The translations under genes were made by a program, and so were the position numbers. Below, in pieces: positions 22,618 through 31,467 of a DNA stretch of 64,000 nucleotides (position 1 is its first letter; each line of letters starts with the position of its first letter). Location of the stretch: the NCBI RefSeq assembly GCF_020711235.1, contig NZ_JAJFAV010000001.1, forward strand, positions 682,001 to 746,000, given 5' to 3'. The notes below the pieces were generated by a model. The model saw nothing but the letters and a program-made list of their open reading frames with translations. It was not told where the DNA came from and made no database searches. This DNA comes from Hymenobacter sp. 15J16-1T3B. GTDB taxonomy: Bacteria > Bacteroidota > Bacteroidia > Cytophagales > Hymenobacteraceae.

Positions 22618-24189
22618 TCAGCGGCGGTACGCCTGGGTTGGAAACGTGGGGTCTTGATAAGCGTCGGAGGCCGGGGCTGGGCCAATAGCAGGCCCAAAAA
22701 TCATAGCCTGCTGATTGGCTGGGGTGTAAGCGGGCCAGTCGGGGCCGGGTTGGCCGGTTTTGATGAAGCGCGCCCAGCGGGCGTGCATGGCCGCGGCCAA
22801 CGTGGCATCGGCGGTTTTGCGCGGGGCGCCGGGCGCGGCTGCGGCGGGGGCCGCTGCCGAGGCGCCGGCCGGGGCATTCCACACGTAGGCCAGCTCCTGG
22901 GCGTGCACGGGCCGTTGCGCGCCGCCGGGCCCGTCGAAGCGGTACAGCCACACCGGGGCGCCCGCGGCGGCCAGCGAATCGGCCAAGCGGTACGTGGCCA
23001 AGCGGTAGAGGTAGTCGGTGAGGGTGCGGTTCCAGGCATCGGGCACGGCCTGCTGCTGGGCCCGTTGGTAGGCCTGCCACACCCGGGCGCCGTTCTGGCC
23101 GAACACCAGCTGCAGGGCCGCCTCGTTGGGCTCGGCAATGGCGGAGCCCGGGCCGGTGAAGAGGCCGGCTTCCTCCCGGTTGGTGCCCAGCAGCACCGGC
23201 CGCGGGCGGGCCCGACGCAGGTAGCGCAGCGGCGGCTGCGGCAGGGTGCGCCCGTCGAGCACCGGCCCGAACACCTGCAGGCCACCCGCCCCGCTGGCAA
23301 ACGTGAGCTGCGCCCGCACCAGCGCTTCGGCGGGCGCGGTGCGCAGATCGGTACCCGCGGGCAGGGCCCGCCGCAGCTGCCGGCTTACCGCCCCGGCCGT
23401 GGCCGTGTCGCGGATGGCCTGCACGGCGCCGCTTTCCAGTATCACCCGCTGAAACAGGCCCTCGGCTGCCGGCGCGGCCAGCAGCGCCCCCACCAGCTTG
23501 GCCCCGGCCGACTCGCCCATCACCGTCACGCGGCGCGGGTCGCCGCCAAAGGCGCGGATGTTGGCCTGCACCCAGCGCAGGGCCGCCACCGCGTCGAGCA
23601 GGCCGCAGTTGCCGGCCTGGGCGTAGGCCGGGCCCCAGGCGGCGGGCGCCTGCAGAAAGCCCAGGCTGCCCAGGCGGTAATTCAAACTCACGGCCACGAT
23701 GCTGTCTTGGGCGGCGAAGGTCCAGGTGTCGTTTTCCTCGCCCGAGCCGCCGGTAAAGGCCCCGCCGTGCACCCACACCACCACCGGCCGGGCCGGCGGG
23801 CGCTTGGCAGTGGCGGACCAGGCCGGAGCCCACACGTTCAGGTATAGGCAATCTTCTTGGCCCTGCACGCCGGCCGGGCCGCCCGCCTGGGTCGCTTTCG
23901 GGCCGAAGCCGGTGGCCGCCCGCGGGCCTTGCCAACGGGGCAGCGGCTGCGGCGGCCGGAAGCGCCGGCCGCCCACCGGGGCCTGGGCGTAGGGAATGCC
24001 GCGAAACACGCATAGGTTGGCCTCGCGGATGCCTTGCAGCCGGCCCTGGTGGGTTTTTACCTCGATAACGGCCGACTGGGCCGTCGGCGTCTGGGCCGCC
24101 GACGGCTGGCGGAAGCCGGCGGCCAGCAGCAGGGCGCCGGCCAGCAGGCCGGGCTGCAAGGGGCGCAAGGCGGGAAACGGACGGTACAT
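22618..24189 (-). CDS. Type B carboxylesterase (secreted)
   Basis: A 523-residue alpha/beta-hydrolase of the carboxylesterase type B family (PF00135). A leader MYRPFPALRPLQPGLLAGALLLAAG precedes the mature part; ATG 24189 is chosen for it. Hallmarks: FRGIPYAQAPVGGRRFRPPQP near 65, EDCLYLNVW near 110, oxyanion-hole VHGGAFTGGSGE near 140, nucleophile Ser in VMGESAGAKLVG near 218, acidic member in LGTNREEAGLF, and His in VHAQELAYVW near 420. Leu/Val replaces the more usual GGxS neighbours but all three triad members are present. It hydrolyses carboxyl esters; the natural substrate is unknown. Confidence 0.92.
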   Translation of the reverse strand: MYRPFPALRPLQPGLLAGALLLAAGFRQPSAAQTPTAQSAVIEVKTHQGRLQGIREANLCVFRGIPYAQAPVGGRRFRPPQPLPRWQGPRAATGFGPKATQAGGPAGVQGQEDCLYLNVWAPAWSATAKRPPARPVVVWVHGGAFTGGSGEENDTWTFAAQDSIVAVSLNYRLGSLGFLQAPAAWGPAYAQAGNCGLLDAVAALRWVQANIRAFGGDPRRVTVMGESAGAKLVGALLAAPAAEGLFQRVILESGAVQAIRDTATAGAVSRQLRRALPAGTDLRTAPAEALVRAQLTFASGAGGLQVFGPVLDGRTLPQPPLRYLRRARPRPVLLGTNREEAGLFTGPGSAIAEPNEAALQLVFGQNGARVWQAYQRAQQQAVPDAWNRTLTDYLYRLATYRLADSLAAAGAPVWLYRFDGPGGAQRPVHAQELAYVWNAPAGASAAAPAAAAPGAPRKTADATLAAAMHARWARFIKTGQPGPDWPAYTPANQQAMIFGPAIGPAPASDAYQDPTFPTQAYRR

Positions 24190-24348
24190 GAGCGGCAAGA
24201 TAAGGGCGCGAACAAAGCGCCGGCGCCTCGGGGCGCGGTCGGTGATGACGCACAGGAAGCCAAAGCCTGCCGGTTCGCTTACCTTTAGTCCCAAACCCCG
24301 CCGCCGCGGGGCGGTTGCTTTGTTGTGGACCCTTTAGCCCCCGTTGCT

Positions 24349-25749
24349 ATGCCAACTACCGCCACGCTTACCGCCGACGACCTGACCGTGGTGCCCGCCC
24401 TGCAGGGCCTGCCCGACGAGGTCCTCACTTGGCTGCTCACCCACGGCGAACCGCTCGACGCCCCGGTGGGCACCGAGCTGTTCCGTCCCGGCGACCCGGT
24501 CGACTACCTGCTGATCCTGCTGCGCGGCGCCGTGCAGATGTGGCGCGAGCAAAATGGCCACCGCGAACCGTTCTTGCGCGTCGAGGCCCCGCAGATAACC
24601 GGCCTGCTGCCCTACTCCCGCCTGCGCCAAACCACCGCGCTGGGCATGATCGTGGCCGATGCGCAGCTGCTGCGCCTGCACCGCGACCAGTTTCCGGAGC
24701 TGGAGCGCATCAGCCCCGAGCTGGTGCAGCGCCTCGTGGGCCTGATGAGCGACCGGGTGCGCGAAGAAGCCCGCACCCAGGAGCGCGACGACAAGCTGCG
24801 GGCCCTGGGCAAGCTCTCGGCCGGCCTGGCCCACGAGCTCAACAACCCCGCCGCCGCCATCAGCCGCTCGGCCGCCGAGCTTTCCAGCCGCACCGGGGCC
24901 GGGCCCATGCTGCTGCAAGAAGTGCTGGCCGCCGGCACGCCCGCCGAGCAGCTGCCGGCGCTGCTGCAGCTGGCCAGCCACTCCATGCTGCCCGGCGCCT
25001 CGCTGTCGGCCCTAGAGCAGGCCGACTGCGAAGAGGAGCTGGAAGACTGGCTGCTGCAGCAGGGCATCAGCGACGTGCACGGCCTGGCCACCGGCCTGCT
25101 CAGCGGCGGCCTTGATGCCGACGTGCTCGGGCCGGTGCTCAGCGCCCTGCCCGCCGCCGCCCGGCCGCCCGCCCTGCGCTGGCTGGAAGGCCAGCTCACC
25201 AGCCACCAGCTCGTGCGCGACGTGCAGGAGGCCTCGCGCCGCATTTCCGAGCTGGTGCACAACGTGAAGGACTACTCCCACATGGACCGCGCGGGCGGCT
25301 TTGTGCCCACCGACCTGCACGGGGGGCTCGACAGCACCCTGGCCCTGCTCAGCTACCCGCTGCGCCAGCACCGCATCCGCGTGGTGCGCGACTACGCCCA
25401 GGGCCTGCTCAGCATCCAGGGCCAGCCCGGCGCCTTGAACCAGGTGTGGACCAACTTGCTCGACAACGCCATCGACGCCCTGCCCGCCACCGGCGGCACC
25501 ATCACCCTGCGCACCCGCCGCAGCGGCGAGTACGCCCAGGTGTGCGTGGAGGACGACGGCCCCGGTATCCCGGCCGACGTGCTGCCGCATATCTTCGAGC
25601 CGTTTTTCACCACCAAGCCCATGGGCGAGGGCACCGGTATGGGGCTCGACATTGCCCGCCGCATCGTGCTCAGCCACGGCGGGCGCGTCAACGTTTCCTC
25701 CCAGCCCGGCCGCACCGAGTTCTGCGTGTGGCTGCCGATGGAGGACTAG
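24349..25749 (+). CDS. Histidine kinase with N-terminal cyclic-nucleotide-binding-type domain
   Basis: A 466-residue soluble sensor kinase, no membrane segment. Residues about 15-125 are a cNMP-binding (Crp/cyclic-NMP) type beta-roll: LFRPGDPVDYLLILLRGAVQMWRE. The dimerisation helix has the phospho-acceptor His162 in LSAGLAHELNNPAAAI. The ATPase part has the N box NLLDNAIDAL (Asn373), G1 VEDDGPGIP, F box FEPFFTTK and G2 GTGMGLDIA, as in NtrB-like kinases. About 200 residues lie between His and Asn, longer than usual, with a helical insertion. The partner gene starts 120 bases downstream and carries a receiver domain. I cannot tell from sequence if cAMP, c-di-GMP or another ligand binds; the canonical phosphate-binding RxA arginine is not evident. 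Confidence 0.92.
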   Translation: MPTTATLTADDLTVVPALQGLPDEVLTWLLTHGEPLDAPVGTELFRPGDPVDYLLILLRGAVQMWREQNGHREPFLRVEAPQITGLLPYSRLRQTTALGMIVADAQLLRLHRDQFPELERISPELVQRLVGLMSDRVREEARTQERDDKLRALGKLSAGLAHELNNPAAAISRSAAELSSRTGAGPMLLQEVLAAGTPAEQLPALLQLASHSMLPGASLSALEQADCEEELEDWLLQQGISDVHGLATGLLSGGLDADVLGPVLSALPAAARPPALRWLEGQLTSHQLVRDVQEASRRISELVHNVKDYSHMDRAGGFVPTDLHGGLDSTLALLSYPLRQHRIRVVRDYAQGLLSIQGQPGALNQVWTNLLDNAIDALPATGGTITLRTRRSGEYAQVCVEDDGPGIPADVLPHIFEPFFTTKPMGEGTGMGLDIARRIVLSHGGRVNVSSQPGRTEFCVWLPMED

Positions 25750-25869
25750 GTGGTGAAAGGGTGAAGTTGTGAATTTGTGAGTGCTGTTCTGACGGCGCAA
25801 CAGGTGCCGTACCCGCCTCCCAAACCCCAACTCGCCACTTCGCAATTTCACAAGTTCACAAGTTCACCC
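25750..25869. repeat. GTGAA-type inverted-arm intergenic element, locus 2
   Basis: Arms at about 25750-25782 (GGGTGAAGTTGTGAATTTG) and 25839-25868, inverted with two mismatches over 22 bases. The left arm starts right after the kinase stop codon and the right arm ends one base before the next ATG, so the element makes up the whole intergenic space. Confidence 0.85.
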
Positions 25870-27531
25870 ATGGATAAGAAACCCGTCCTGCTCGTGGTCG
25901 ACGACGACCCGCAGGTGCTATCGGCCATCGACCGCGACCTGCGCCAGGAATTTCGGCCCGAGTACCGCATTGTGCGGGCCGGCTCGGGGCAGGAAGGGCT
26001 GGAGGTGATTCGCCAGCTCAAAGCCCGCGCCGAGCCCTTGGCCCTGGTCCTTTCCGACCAGCGCATGCCTGACATGGAGGGCGTGCAGCTGCTGGAGCAA
26101 GCCCGCACCTTGTTTCCGGAGGCCAAGCGCGTGCTGCTCACCGCCTACGCCGACACCGAGGCCGCCATCCGCGCCATCAACGACGCCCGCCTCGATTACT
26201 ACCTGATGAAGCCCTGGGACCCGCCCCAGCAGCTGCTCTACCCCACCCTGCACGACCTGCTGGCGGCCTGGCAGGTGCAGTACCAGCCGCAGTTTCGCGG
26301 GGTGCGCCTGATCGGGTTTCAATGGTCGCCGCTCTCGCACGAGCTCAAGGATTTTCTGGCCGGCTACATGGTGGCTTTTCAGTGGCTCGACTTCGAAACC
26401 AACCCCGAAGCCGCGCTGCTGCTCGATTCGCTGGGCCTGAAATCCGAAGACCTGCCCGTGGTGCTGACCCAGGACGGCACCGTGCTGCCCCACCCCACCC
26501 GCGCCGAGCTGGCCACCCAGCTGGGTTTGGCCCGGCAGGCCTCGCAGCAGCTCTACGACGTGGTCGTGGTGGGCGCCGGACCCTCGGGGCTGGCGGCGGC
26601 GGTGTACGGCGCTTCCGAAGGGCTTAAGACCCTGCTCATCGAGCGGCAAAACCCCGGCGGGCAAGCCGGCACCTCCTCGCGCATCGAAAACTACCTGGGC
26701 TTCCCCACGGGCCTGAGCGGCTCGGAGCTGGCCCACCGCGCCTGGGCCCAGGCCGTGCGCCTCGGCGCCGAAATCCTCAACGCCCAGGAAGTCACCAAGC
26801 TCTGCGTGCAGGACGAGTATAAGGTGCTGACCCTGGCCGACGGCAGCGAGGTGCGCAGCCGGGCCGTGGTGCTCACCACCGGCGTGAGCTACCGGCAGCT
26901 GGCCGTGCCGGGCATGGACCGCCTCACCGGCGCGGGTGTGTACTACGGCGCGGCCCGCACCGAAGCCCGTTCCTGCCACGACCAGCCGGTGTACGTGGTG
27001 GGCGGCGGCAACTCGGCCGGCCAAGCGGCCATGTACCTGGCCGGCTACGCCAGCAAGGTCTACATCGTCATCCGCGGCGCTTCCCTGGCCGCGTCCATGT
27101 CGGCCTACCTGATCGAGCAGATCGGGCGGACCGCCAATATCGAGCTGCTGCCCTTCACCGAAATCCAGGAAGTGAAGGGCCAGGACCACCTCGAAGCCGT
27201 GGTGCTGCGCCAGAACCAGACCGGTCAGACCCAGGAGTGCCCGGCCCGCGCCGTGTTCGTGTTCATCGGCGCCAAGCCCAGCACCGAGTGGGTGTGCGAC
27301 GTGCTGCTCTGCGACGGCAAAGGCTTCGTGCTCACCGGCCGCGACCTGGTGGCCGACCCACGTTTTGCCACGCGATGGAAAAAGCAGCGCGAGCCGTACG
27401 CGCTGGAAACCTGCGTGCCCGGCATCTTCTCCGCCGGCGACTCCCGCGCCGGCGCCATGGCCCGGGTTGCCTCGGCCGTGGGCGAGGGTTCCATGGCCAT
27501 CAAGTTCGTGCACCAGTATTTGGACGAGTAG
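25870..27531 (+). CDS. Receiver / glutaredoxin-like / thioredoxin-reductase-like fusion flavoprotein
   Basis: A 553-residue three-part protein. Residues 1-125 are a CheY-like receiver: acidic pocket D11-D13, phospho-acceptor Asp63 in LSDQRMPD, Thr91, Lys114. Residues about 145-215 look like a glutaredoxin/thioredoxin fold (LIGFQWSPLSHELKDFL, VVLTQDGTVLPHPT), but the CPxC site reads SPLS. Residues 230-553 are a thioredoxin-reductase-like FAD/NAD(P) module: VVVVGAGPSGLAAAVYGASEG, NPGGQAGTSSRIENYLGFP, VVGGGNSAGQAAMYLAG, and the closing GIFSAGDSRAGAMARVASAVGEGSMA. The CATC redox pair of true thioredoxin reductase is GAAR. It therefore should move electrons from NAD(P)H through FAD under control of receiver phosphorylation, without thiol relay. 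The start at 25870 follows the kinase directly. Confidence 0.9.
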   Translation: MDKKPVLLVVDDDPQVLSAIDRDLRQEFRPEYRIVRAGSGQEGLEVIRQLKARAEPLALVLSDQRMPDMEGVQLLEQARTLFPEAKRVLLTAYADTEAAIRAINDARLDYYLMKPWDPPQQLLYPTLHDLLAAWQVQYQPQFRGVRLIGFQWSPLSHELKDFLAGYMVAFQWLDFETNPEAALLLDSLGLKSEDLPVVLTQDGTVLPHPTRAELATQLGLARQASQQLYDVVVVGAGPSGLAAAVYGASEGLKTLLIERQNPGGQAGTSSRIENYLGFPTGLSGSELAHRAWAQAVRLGAEILNAQEVTKLCVQDEYKVLTLADGSEVRSRAVVLTTGVSYRQLAVPGMDRLTGAGVYYGAARTEARSCHDQPVYVVGGGNSAGQAAMYLAGYASKVYIVIRGASLAASMSAYLIEQIGRTANIELLPFTEIQEVKGQDHLEAVVLRQNQTGQTQECPARAVFVFIGAKPSTEWVCDVLLCDGKGFVLTGRDLVADPRFATRWKKQREPYALETCVPGIFSAGDSRAGAMARVASAVGEGSMAIKFVHQYLDE

Positions 27532-27681: not shown

Positions 27682-27900
27682 AGGTTGAACGCAGCAAGGC
27701 CTGACAGCACCAGTCGGTGTCGGCACTTCGGCAGTGGCGGAGGTGCAGGGCTTGAAAAAAGTCCTGGGCTACGCTTTGCCTCGGGTCGTGGCGCTCGAGA
27801 CGACCGGCCGAAGAGGCGGATAAAAATGAAGAAACGGTGAAGCTTTTTGGTATTTTGCTGCCAATCAACGCTTCATCTCTTCCGTTTATCCGTTCCCCGC

Positions 27901-30900
27901 ATGAAACACCTTAACGCGCTGCTGCTGGCGGCGCTGGCCCTGAGTAGCTCCGCGCTGCAGGCCCAGCCGACGCCCGCGCCCACCAAGCTGCTGCTGGCCA
28001 GCGGCACGCCGGCGGTGCCGGCCAACTTCGCCACCTGGGCCGCGGCCGGCCGCGCCGAGTCGGTAGCGGCGGCCGACGTCTGGCAAGGGAAGTACTACCG
28101 CGTCCTTCAGTTCAGCCAGCTGCCCACGGCCGAACAGCACCGCGCCCTCAAAGCCCTGGGCGTGCAGCTGCTCGACTACCTGCCCCAGAACGCCTACGTG
28201 GCCGCCCTGCCCACCACGCTCGACCGCGCCCGCCTGCAGGGCTTTGGCATCCGCGGCGTGGTGCCGGTGCAGGCCAGCTGGAAGTACACCGGCCTCCTCG
28301 CCCAAGGCGGTGGCACGCCCGCCTACGCCCTGCGCGGCGCCGGCCGGGTGGCCGTGGTCGTGGGCTTTCACCCCACCATTCAGCCCGCCGAGGCCGCTGC
28401 CGCCCTCACGGCTGCCGGCTACGCGGTGACCGAGCGCCAGGACTTCTCGCGCCAGCTTACGCTGACCGTGCCCAGCAGTGACCTCGCGGCCTTGGCCGCC
28501 CGGCCCTGGGTGGCCAGCGTGGAGTACGTGGCGCCCGACCCCGTGCACGACAACAACCGCGGCCGCACCGACCACCGCGCCAACGCCCTGGCTGCCGACT
28601 ACGGCGCCGGCCGCCACTACGACGGCACCGGCGTGAACGTGGCCCACGGCGACGACGGCATCATCGGTCCGCACATCGACTTCCAGGGCCGCCTCGACCA
28701 GACCAGCGCCGGCCCCGACGGCGGCACCCACGGGGACCACGTGGCGGGCATCATCATGGGCGCCGGCAACCTGGACCCGCGCTACCGCGGGCAGGCCGTG
28801 GGGGCCTTTAACTACTATTACTCTTACCCCAACAACATCAACAGCGCGCCCACGCACTACACCTCGCGCAGCATCCGCATCACCAGCAACTCCTACAGCA
28901 ACGGCTGCAACGCGGGCTACACGTCCTTTGCCCGGCAGATGGACCAGATGAGCCGGCAAATGCCCCTGATGCTGCACGTCTTTTCCTCCGGCAACGAGGG
29001 CGCCTCCAACTGCAACTACGGCGCCGGCGCCACCTGGGGCAACATCACCGGCGGGCACAAGGTGGCCAAGAACGTGATGACCGTGGGCAACCTGAGCTAC
29101 ATCGACGCGCTGAACTCGTCTTCCTCCCGCGGGCCGTCCACCGACGGGCGCATCAAGCCAGAGGTGTGCGCCGTGGGCACCAGCGTGTGGTCGACGCAGC
29201 CGAACAACACCTACGCGGCCCTGACCGGCACGTCCATGTCGTGCCCGGCGGTGAGCGGGGTGGTGGCCCAACTGATGCACGCCCACAAGGCCATCAACAA
29301 CGGCGCCGAAGCCCCGGCGGCCCTCGTCAAGGCGGCGCTGATGAACACGGCCGAGGACCTGGGCAACGCCGGCCCCGACTTCCGCTTCGGCTACGGCCGC
29401 ATCGACGCGCTGCGCGCCGTGCGCGTGCTCGAAGACCACAGCTATAAGCTCGACAGCCTCACGCAGGGCGTCACGCGCACGCACACCATCACGGTGCCCG
29501 CCGGCCAGCGCCAGCTGCGCGTGATGCTGTACTGGCCCGACTACGAAGCCGCCGCCAGCTCGCGCAAAAACCTCGTCAACGACCTGGACCTGACCCTGAC
29601 CGCGCCGGGCGGCACCGCCTACCAGCCCTGGGTGCTCGACCCGCGCCCCACGGTGACCAACCTGAACGCGGTGGCCGTGCGCGCCCGCGACTCGCTCAAC
29701 AACGCCGAGCAGGTGACGCTGGATCTGCCCGCCGCCGGCACCTACACCCTCACCGTGAACGGCACCGCCGTGCCCCAGGGCCCGCAGCGCTACTACCTGC
29801 TCTACACCTGGCTCGACGACCGGGTGGAAATGACCTACCCGCTGGGTGGGGAGGGCTTCGTGCCCGGCGAAACCGAGGCCGTGCGCTGGAACGCCGCGCC
29901 CGGCACCGACCCGTTTACGCTGGAGTACACCCTGAACAACGGCACCACCTGGACGACCATTGCCTCGAACATCAGCGCCGCGGACCGCTACTTCAACTGG
30001 GCCATTCCGGCCTCCATCACGCCCTCGGGCCAGGCCCGTCTGCGCGTGCGCCGCGGCACCCAGCAGGATGAGTCGGACGCCAACATCACCATTGCCGGCG
30101 TGCCGGCCAACCTGCGCGCCACCGCCGTGTGCCGCGCCAGCACCACCCTGGCCTGGGACGCCGTGGCTGGTGCCACCAGCTACGACGTGATGCGCCTCGG
30201 CGCCATGTACATGGACTCGGTCACCACCGTGACGGGCACCACCATCAGCCTGCCGGTGGTGGGCACCGGGGAGCAGTGGTTTGCCATCCGGGCCCGCGGG
30301 GCCAACGGCATGGTGGGCCGCCGCACCCGCGCCCTGCTGCGCCCCGGCGTGCTGAGCAACTGCAACGAAGCCCCGGCGGCCGCCATTGGGGTGCTGAACG
30401 GGCAGGCCTGCGTGGGCACCCCGGTGCAGCTGCAGGACCTCTCGCAGCTCGCGCCCACCAGCTGGCAGTGGAGCGTGACGCCCAGCGCGGGCGTGAGCTT
30501 TGCGGGCGGCACGTCGGCCGCTTCGCAGAACCCGCAGTTGCTCTTCAGCCAAGCCGGCACCTACAGCGTGACGCTGACCGCCACCAACCAGTACGGCCCC
30601 AACACCCGCACCGAAACCAACCTGCTCACGGTAATCACGGCGGCGAACGGGCCCTACGTGGAGGAGTTCCGCACGGCCGTATTCCCGCCCGCCAACTGGC
30701 GCGTGGTCGACCCGAACGGGGGCTACACCTGGCAGCTGAGCCCCGGCACCGTGACGGGCCCGGATAACACCAGCCGCCGCGTGCCCTACGTGAACGACTA
30801 CGAATTCACCAACCGCACCGCCGAGGAATACCTGCTGGCCCGGCCCGCGCAGGCCGGCGGCGGCAACCCCGTAGCCGTGCGGTTTGCCGTGGCGTACGCG

Positions 30901-31467
30901 CCCTACAGCACCGGCTACAACGACGGCCTGCGGGTCGACATCAGCACCGACTGCGGCCAGACCTTCCAGCCCACCGGCTACCTCAAGCGCGGCGCGACGC
31001 TGGCCACCGTGGCGGGCTACGTGACGACGCCCTGGGCGCCCACGGCCGCCAGCCAGTGGCGCAGCGAAACAGTGGCGCTGCAGCCCCTGCTGCCCGCGGG
31101 CTTCAACGGCAACATCGTGGTGCGCTTCGCCAACCTCAACGACAACGGCAACAACCTCTACCTGACCGACGTGCGCATGGAGTACATCGTCACCGGGACC
31201 AAGGGCTCGGCCGCGCTGGCGCAGTTTTCGGCCTACCCGGTGCCCTTTGGCGGGCGCCTGACGGTGAACGTGCAGGCCGCCAAAGCCAGCGCCGGCACGC
31301 TGCTGCTCACCGACGCCCTCGGCCGCGAGCTGCTGGGCCAGCCCGTGCAGCTCAGCGGGCTGGCCCAGCAGCTGGAGCTGGACACCGAAGCGCTGGCGGC
31401 CGGCGTGTACTCGCTGCGCCTGCTGCTGCCCGACGGCCAGAGTCAAGCCTTGCAAGTGCTGAAGTAA
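27901..31467 (+). CDS. T9SS-exported S8 family serine peptidase (subtilase)
   Basis: A 1188-residue secreted protease. Signal peptide MKHLNALLLAALALSSSALQ, then a propeptide region to about residue 230. The catalytic domain has Asp251 (NVAHGDDGI), His280 (HGDHVAGI), the oxyanion Asn segment SSGNEGASN, and Ser445 (GTSMSCPAVSG). After it come a jelly-roll/P-type domain (about 500-650), a fibronectin-type beta domain, a PKD-like domain (NEAPAAAIGVLNGQ ... YSVTLTATNQYG) and a further beta-sandwich. The last ~80 residues are a type A sorting domain (FSAYPVPFGGRLTV ... GVYSLRLLLPDG), so the type IX system carries it over the outer membrane. The hairpin at 31501 ends the transcript. Confidence 0.93.
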   Translation: MKHLNALLLAALALSSSALQAQPTPAPTKLLLASGTPAVPANFATWAAAGRAESVAAADVWQGKYYRVLQFSQLPTAEQHRALKALGVQLLDYLPQNAYVAALPTTLDRARLQGFGIRGVVPVQASWKYTGLLAQGGGTPAYALRGAGRVAVVVGFHPTIQPAEAAAALTAAGYAVTERQDFSRQLTLTVPSSDLAALAARPWVASVEYVAPDPVHDNNRGRTDHRANALAADYGAGRHYDGTGVNVAHGDDGIIGPHIDFQGRLDQTSAGPDGGTHGDHVAGIIMGAGNLDPRYRGQAVGAFNYYYSYPNNINSAPTHYTSRSIRITSNSYSNGCNAGYTSFARQMDQMSRQMPLMLHVFSSGNEGASNCNYGAGATWGNITGGHKVAKNVMTVGNLSYIDALNSSSSRGPSTDGRIKPEVCAVGTSVWSTQPNNTYAALTGTSMSCPAVSGVVAQLMHAHKAINNGAEAPAALVKAALMNTAEDLGNAGPDFRFGYGRIDALRAVRVLEDHSYKLDSLTQGVTRTHTITVPAGQRQLRVMLYWPDYEAAASSRKNLVNDLDLTLTAPGGTAYQPWVLDPRPTVTNLNAVAVRARDSLNNAEQVTLDLPAAGTYTLTVNGTAVPQGPQRYYLLYTWLDDRVEMTYPLGGEGFVPGETEAVRWNAAPGTDPFTLEYTLNNGTTWTTIASNISAADRYFNWAIPASITPSGQARLRVRRGTQQDESDANITIAGVPANLRATAVCRASTTLAWDAVAGATSYDVMRLGAMYMDSVTTVTGTTISLPVVGTGEQWFAIRARGANGMVGRRTRALLRPGVLSNCNEAPAAAIGVLNGQACVGTPVQLQDLSQLAPTSWQWSVTPSAGVSFAGGTSAASQNPQLLFSQAGTYSVTLTATNQYGPNTRTETNLLTVITAANGPYVEEFRTAVFPPANWRVVDPNGGYTWQLSPGTVTGPDNTSRRVPYVNDYEFTNRTAEEYLLARPAQAGGGNPVAVRFAVAYAPYSTGYNDGLRVDISTDCGQTFQPTGYLKRGATLATVAGYVTTPWAPTAASQWRSETVALQPLLPAGFNGNIVVRFANLNDNGNNLYLTDVRMEYIVTGTKGSAALAQFSAYPVPFGGRLTVNVQAAKASAGTLLLTDALGRELLGQPVQLSGLAQQLELDTEALAAGVYSLRLLLPDGQSQALQVLK

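Follow-up and report, generated by a model that had tools for sequence, protein, structure and literature searches.

In a 64,000-nt stretch of the genome of Hymenobacter sp. 15J16-1T3B (contig NZ_JAJFAV010000001.1, positions 682,001 to 746,000; the window, whose numbering is used throughout), two genes follow one another on the + strand, with 120 bases between them. The upstream open reading frame (24349..25749) encodes a soluble histidine kinase of 466 amino acids with a cyclic-nucleotide (cNMP)-fold sensor, a DHp domain and a HATPase_c domain, and the downstream one (25870..27531) encodes a regulator of 553 amino acids in which a receiver (REC) domain is followed by a glutaredoxin-fold domain and a thioredoxin reductase (TrxR)-like flavoprotein. 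We favour, with odds somewhat better than even, the reading that the two genes form a single two-component system with a kinase-gated NAD(P)H–FAD flavoenzyme as its output, acting in redox or proteotoxic stress. The outputs of response regulators are usually directed at DNA, and those that are enzymatic are mostly cyclic-di-GMP or methylation enzymes. This pair is widespread and uncharacterised, and in it a phosphorelay would control the flow of electrons from NAD(P)H. A first-pass annotation of the DNA had proposed this domain content, which domain matches to both proteins and the predicted structure of the regulator bear out.

The co-occurrence check suggested there gave a clear answer: among 296 Bacteroidota genomes drawn evenly, regulator and kinase were present in the identical 41, including genomes in which the two lie apart (kinase presence was called at E ≤ 1e-60, a cut set after a gap in the scores was seen; Fisher p ~3e-51, with relatedness ignored, which inflates the p-value). 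Of 96 regulator loci, 70 have the kinase gene next door in the same orientation, 44 with the kinase upstream and 26 with it downstream; in 11 it lies nearby, and in 15, mainly from cyanobacteria, the stretch contains no such kinase. In Bacteroidota the kinase comes upstream, and in other groups it is mostly downstream. From the shared genomes and this adjacency, we conclude that kinase and regulator form one system. Among our loci L011-L014, two such kinases lie near the regulator in Deinococcus aetherius, and cyanobacterial copies on plasmids of Nostoc and Gloeothece are found behind glgX and a gene for an AGE-family epimerase. The domain order had been called rare, which holds against response regulators as a whole; within our sample, REC-fused regulators occur in those 41 Bacteroidota genomes and span at least nine phyla (246 Actinomycetota genomes were also searched, and Pseudomonadota and Cyanobacteriota were sampled unevenly).

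The receiver (PF00072, residues 8-119; 25891..26226, + strand) has the full response-regulator set of acidic residues (D11 and D12), phospho-acceptor aspartate, threonine and lysine, and it looks active by these residues. The predicted phospho-acceptor D63 (26056..26058) is aspartate in 96/98 close homologues and in 165/175 of a wider set, and T91 and K114 are conserved in 95/98 and 96/98 close homologues, respectively. The middle domain (approximately residues 144-220; 26299..26529) itself matches no Pfam family; in alignments it corresponds to the region that Pfam assigns to Glutaredoxin in unfused relatives, and structure prediction, also suggested at first pass, gives a thioredoxin fold in β-α-β-α-β-β-α order with the invariant Pro196 at the predicted cis-Pro position. 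The AlphaFold2 model of the regulator has a mean predicted local distance difference test score of 89 and a predicted template modelling score of 0.71, which gives good confidence in the individual domains and less in how they are placed relative to one another. The flavoprotein part (approximately residues 228-553; 26551..27528) matches PF07992 at residues 229-540 and the fold of thioredoxin reductases. It keeps the FAD motif GxGxxG as GAGPSG (residues 235-240; 26572..26589) and the NAD(P)H motif GGxxSA as GGGNSA (residues 378-383; 27001..27018), with an invariant R402 and without the HRRxxxR signature. Given these intact motifs, an NAD(P)H–FAD output gated by a two-component signal is the most economical reading.

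Both thiol sites of the ancestral enzyme are gone. Residues 153-156 read SPLS (26326..26337) in place of the glutaredoxin CPxC, within a WSPxS motif where unfused homologues have WCPDC, and residues 360-363 read GAAR (26947..26958) in place of CATC by alignment with homologues. The former position of the TrxR disulfide now carries a new conserved motif, Y-Y-G-[AS]-x-x-T-E-A-x-x-C, and its family-specific EAxxC (26962..26976) directly follows the lost disulfide; E365 is kept in 98/98 close and 169/176 REC-fused homologues, and C369 in 85/98 and 124/176. A CxxC was found at either site in 0/98 close homologues, and an intact cysteine pair in 0/176 REC-fused homologues (some of which are near-identical or were reached twice), 0/14 cNMP-fused homologues and 0/6 labelled as unfused and thiol-less, two of these last labels being mis-scorings of domain extent (L099, a close relative of the window gene, and L056, which is split in frame). 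The first-pass observation of thiol loss therefore extends to REC- and cNMP-fused forms family-wide, and its statement, that thioredoxin cannot be reduced by the known route, is correct in the form in which it was made.

Homologues that keep the cysteines, which the first-pass annotation had named as evidence against its proposal, do exist, but as an outgroup that lacks a regulatory domain. These unfused Actinomycetota glutaredoxin–TrxR proteins (for example, L189-L197), which came from the search of 246 genomes, are 410-450 amino acids long and 36-38% identical to the regulator across both core domains, and differ in having kept WCPDC and CATC, both of which are intact in nearly all thiol-bearing unfused forms (one reads CPDS). 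In a maximum-likelihood tree of 90 sequences, 77/77 thiol-less rows fall into one clade (Shimodaira–Hasegawa-like approximate likelihood-ratio support 100) and the thiol state changes once, from which it follows that both disulfides were lost in one ancestor. Regulatory domains occur on the thiol-less side only, and the cNMP fusions form one clade (support 100) nested within the REC-fused forms. A TrxR core thus lost both disulfides once and then gained regulatory domains. Local pseudogenization or degeneration was rejected, the thiol loss being common to several phyla in one clade. A regulator copy in an uncultured Halomicronema metagenome-assembled genome (L056:4553-6220) is broken by a stop or frameshift, possibly an assembly error.

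Several known enzymes resemble the regulator. Low-Mr thioredoxin reductases (TIGR01292) share its fold and its FAD and NAD(P)H motifs, whereas the regulator lacks CATC and scores 227 bits, under the curated 343-bit cut-off. We rejected a housekeeping thioredoxin reductase on this missed cut-off and because the genome has another TrxR-like gene that does bear a CxxC (L153, CAVC). AhpF, which couples a thioredoxin-fold domain to TrxR, is the best whole-length Protein Data Bank fold match (4o5q, 1hyu) but retains both disulfides and has no REC, and against TIGR03140 the regulator reaches 157 bits, with the cut-off at 503. Annotated plasmid-borne relatives have the same architecture, 50-55% identity over near full length and an adjoining kinase annotated as 'ATP-binding protein'; RefSeq names the REC–TrxR relatives 'FAD-dependent oxidoreductase'. 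The combination of REC and thioredoxin reductase was already listed in a 2018 census as a 'Mycobacterium-like combination', and the census passages that mention it do so without the lost cysteines, the co-occurring kinase or the cNMP-fused sister form (PMC5847659).

That sister form, which RefSeq calls cyclic nucleotide-binding domain-containing thioredoxin-disulfide reductase, has a cNMP domain in place of the receiver; the loci examined had no kinase of this type next to it. A profile of the sister cNMP domain scores 66-105 bits against the sensors of four kinases at REC-type loci (from cyanobacteria, Deinococcus and Rubrobacteraceae), compared with at most 43 bits against generic cNMP domains of the window genome. 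For this subset of loci, as distinct from the window pair, the similarity suggests that the same sensor module has reached the flavoenzyme by two wirings, fusion or phosphorelay. The swap of REC for cNMP on one core offers a direct handle on signal and output.

The closest experimental work concerns a cNMP-fused member. ATII-TrxR comes from a Red Sea brine metagenome, has a Crp domain and is reported as 87% identical to a Cupriavidus metallidurans protein. It reportedly works with both NADPH and NADH and reduces 5,5′-dithiobis(2-nitrobenzoic acid) (DTNB) and thioredoxin, the latter with a kcat of 28 per s; its redox centres were named as Cys206-Cys223 and Cys376-Cys467, neither of them a CxxC (PMC6544261). 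Its class, the thioredoxin reductases with a cNMP-binding domain, has the same glutaredoxin-fold and TrxR core as the regulator, also without CxxC (42-50% identity over the core), and differs in a fused cNMP input instead of REC and in having no adjoining kinase in the loci viewed. The cNMP-TrxR on the C. metallidurans megaplasmid, presumably the homologue cited in that report, lacks both CxxC sites and has cysteines at three of the four ATII-named positions at a constant offset of 21, the counterpart of Cys376 being the EAxxC cysteine. Given this report, the notion that disulfides are out, or that such proteins cannot act on disulfides, is not justified for the family. The NAD(P)H–FAD output that the first-pass annotation placed under a two-component signal is thus backed by the gene pairing, the receiver and the cofactor motifs, whereas a purely non-thiol electron-transfer role is not established, a cNMP-fused relative without CxxC having reportedly reduced both DTNB and thioredoxin (PMC6544261). 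Many 'thioredoxin reductase' annotations on REC- and cNMP-fused proteins stand on sequences without the defining chemistry of that enzyme.

The sensor of the window kinase (PF00027, residues 41-118; 24469..24702) matches its family at 28.2 bits, barely above the 27.5-bit cut-off, and the same family is matched by 66/67 members of the kinase family. The Glu and Arg of the phosphate-binding cassette are not kept, and the Bacteroidota kinases have G-x-L-P-[YF]-S-R instead, unlike a cAMP binder. Direct cAMP control was rejected on these missing cassette residues; the domain has the cNMP fold, probably with a ligand other than cAMP. The HisKA match is sub-threshold; a HELNNP box marks H162 (24832..24834) as the predicted phospho-accepting histidine, conserved in 67/67 members, and a HATPase_c domain follows (PF02518, residues 360-465; 25426..25743). 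The kinase showed no stretch hydrophobic enough for a transmembrane segment.

Further genes keep company with the flavoprotein. A small UBP-type zinc-finger protein (PF02148), of a fold best known for binding the free C-termini of ubiquitin, is encoded in 25 of approximately 96 loci, which span Bacteroidota, Balneolota, Cyanobacteriota, Chloroflexota, Acidobacteriota and Actinomycetota. It recurs beside the thiol-less TrxR in L013, L015, L017, L022, L028-L032, L034, L035, L037, L038, L040, L043, L048, L049, L054, L059, L072, L081, L086, L087 and L090. Over the 296 genomes, a REC-fused, cNMP-fused or unfused thiol-less TrxR is present in 28/31 genomes with the UBP finger versus 17/265 without it (Fisher p ~3e-24, relatedness ignored). 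As the finger accompanies all three forms alike, it tracks the flavoenzyme core. On three actinobacterial plasmids (L015, L222 and L223), cNMP-TrxR follows dnaJ-cbpM-clpB-trxA-UBP finger, and in Gloeocapsa genes for thioredoxin and DsbA adjoin that of an unfused form. By association only, this company of TrxA, DsbA-like, ClpB/DnaJ and UBP-finger genes points to redox and proteotoxic stress. In three genomes of the phylum Bacteroidota (L128-L130), the UBP finger instead forms the C-terminal part of a Kef-type cation:proton antiporter, whose gene adjoins those of kinase and regulator.

Several side observations concern the same genes. The actinobacterial plasmid operon constitutes a mobile protein-quality-control cassette, with dnaK and grpE also present in L015. 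Kef-like CPA2 antiporters that carry TrkA_N and, C-terminally, a UBP finger are encoded at L128:2267-4315 and L131:1971-4100 and in L129 and L130; in L132 and L133 the antiporter and a UBP finger are separate neighbours, and in L132 a DsbA-like gene lies between the two. The window genome has a single UBP finger gene (L127), which lies beside an OsmC-like gene on a different contig, away from the kinase–regulator pair.

In the mechanism that we propose, the kinase would sense a cytoplasmic signal through its cNMP-fold domain and phosphorylate D63 of the receiver, which would alter the catalytic cycle of the attached flavoenzyme or the docking of a partner. The ancestor would have been a glutaredoxin–thioredoxin-reductase fusion passing electrons from NADPH through FAD and CATC to CPxC; after the loss of both disulfides, electrons would pass from NAD(P)H through FAD directly to an outside acceptor. 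The acceptor might be a partner thioredoxin or DsbA-like protein, whose disulfide would occupy the empty site in trans, or else a small molecule resembling a quinone or an electrophile. In a more elaborate and distinctly improbable version, the two-component switch would act on a flavoprotein reductase whose disulfide is supplied in trans by a thioredoxin or DsbA-like protein, with the UBP finger as adaptor; in some lineages its target would be the Kef-like antiporter with the same finger, the flavoprotein serving as a KefF/KefG-like ancillary oxidoreductase. The probabilities that we attach to the readings are not exclusive: a disulfide in trans is a sub-case of the kinase-gated flavoenzyme and, together with the protein's own cysteine, a rival to it.

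Several points weigh against a kinase-gated flavoenzyme. TrxR-like proteins can act as sensors rather than enzymes; C369 is missing in about a third of REC-fused homologues; the window kinase's cNMP domain scores 23.8 bits against the sister profile, no closer than generic ones; the neighbours of the pair in the window, a carboxylesterase and a subtilase, are uninformative on redox; and the open literature searched, outside which most subscription journals lie, yielded neither a characterised REC–TrxR protein nor biochemistry for any REC-fused member. The flavoprotein might be a redox sensor, in which FAD or bound NAD(P)H would report the reduction state and set receiver phosphorylation or the activity of the kinase or of another protein, for instance the UBP finger. 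The loss of both thiol relays with retention of the cofactor motifs would fit such a role, as would the presence of the UBP finger with the flavoprotein in REC, cNMP and unfused architectures; the receiver and cNMP domains, however, are placed as input modules, and turnover of substrates by the sister enzyme was seen in vitro (PMC6544261). We consider a sensor unlikely, if worth keeping in view.

That same report argues for a true disulfide reductase working by another route, the reduced flavin passing electrons directly to a thioredoxin or DsbA-like protein or through the EAxxC cysteine, to which we give the same low weight as to the sensor. The cysteines of the C. metallidurans member, one of them in EAxxC, also argue for it, as does trxA, which adjoins the cNMP form in 3/3 actinobacterial plasmid loci viewed. 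Against it, the reductase activity comes from one paper with no cysteine mutants, and the protein was purified by His-tag only from E. coli with its own TrxB, although its heat stability and its use of NADH speak against carry-over; C369 is not present in all homologues, and the match to ATII-TrxR rests on the C. metallidurans member, not on an alignment of the ATII sequence. With C369 in only 124/176 REC-fused homologues, a single-cysteine mechanism cannot be general, and we rejected it as the general answer. A dead scaffold, in which the TrxR part would work by binding only, for example by sequestering a partner when phosphorylated, would account for the loss of two catalytic motifs; the FAD, NAD(P)H and new EA motifs are near-invariant across phyla, needlessly so for a scaffold, and the sister enzyme is active, which makes this the least probable of the readings and a very unlikely one.

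In the window, the carboxylesterase gene (22618-24294, − strand) neighbours the kinase gene, and the subtilase gene (27847-31467, + strand), whose product has a C-terminal sorting tail, neighbours that of the regulator; related loci examined gave no sign of a conserved operon of the pair with either. A role in anti-phage defence was set aside, as neither kinase nor regulator had a PADLOC match. The nearest named relatives are from Hymenobacter (L018, 76% identity).

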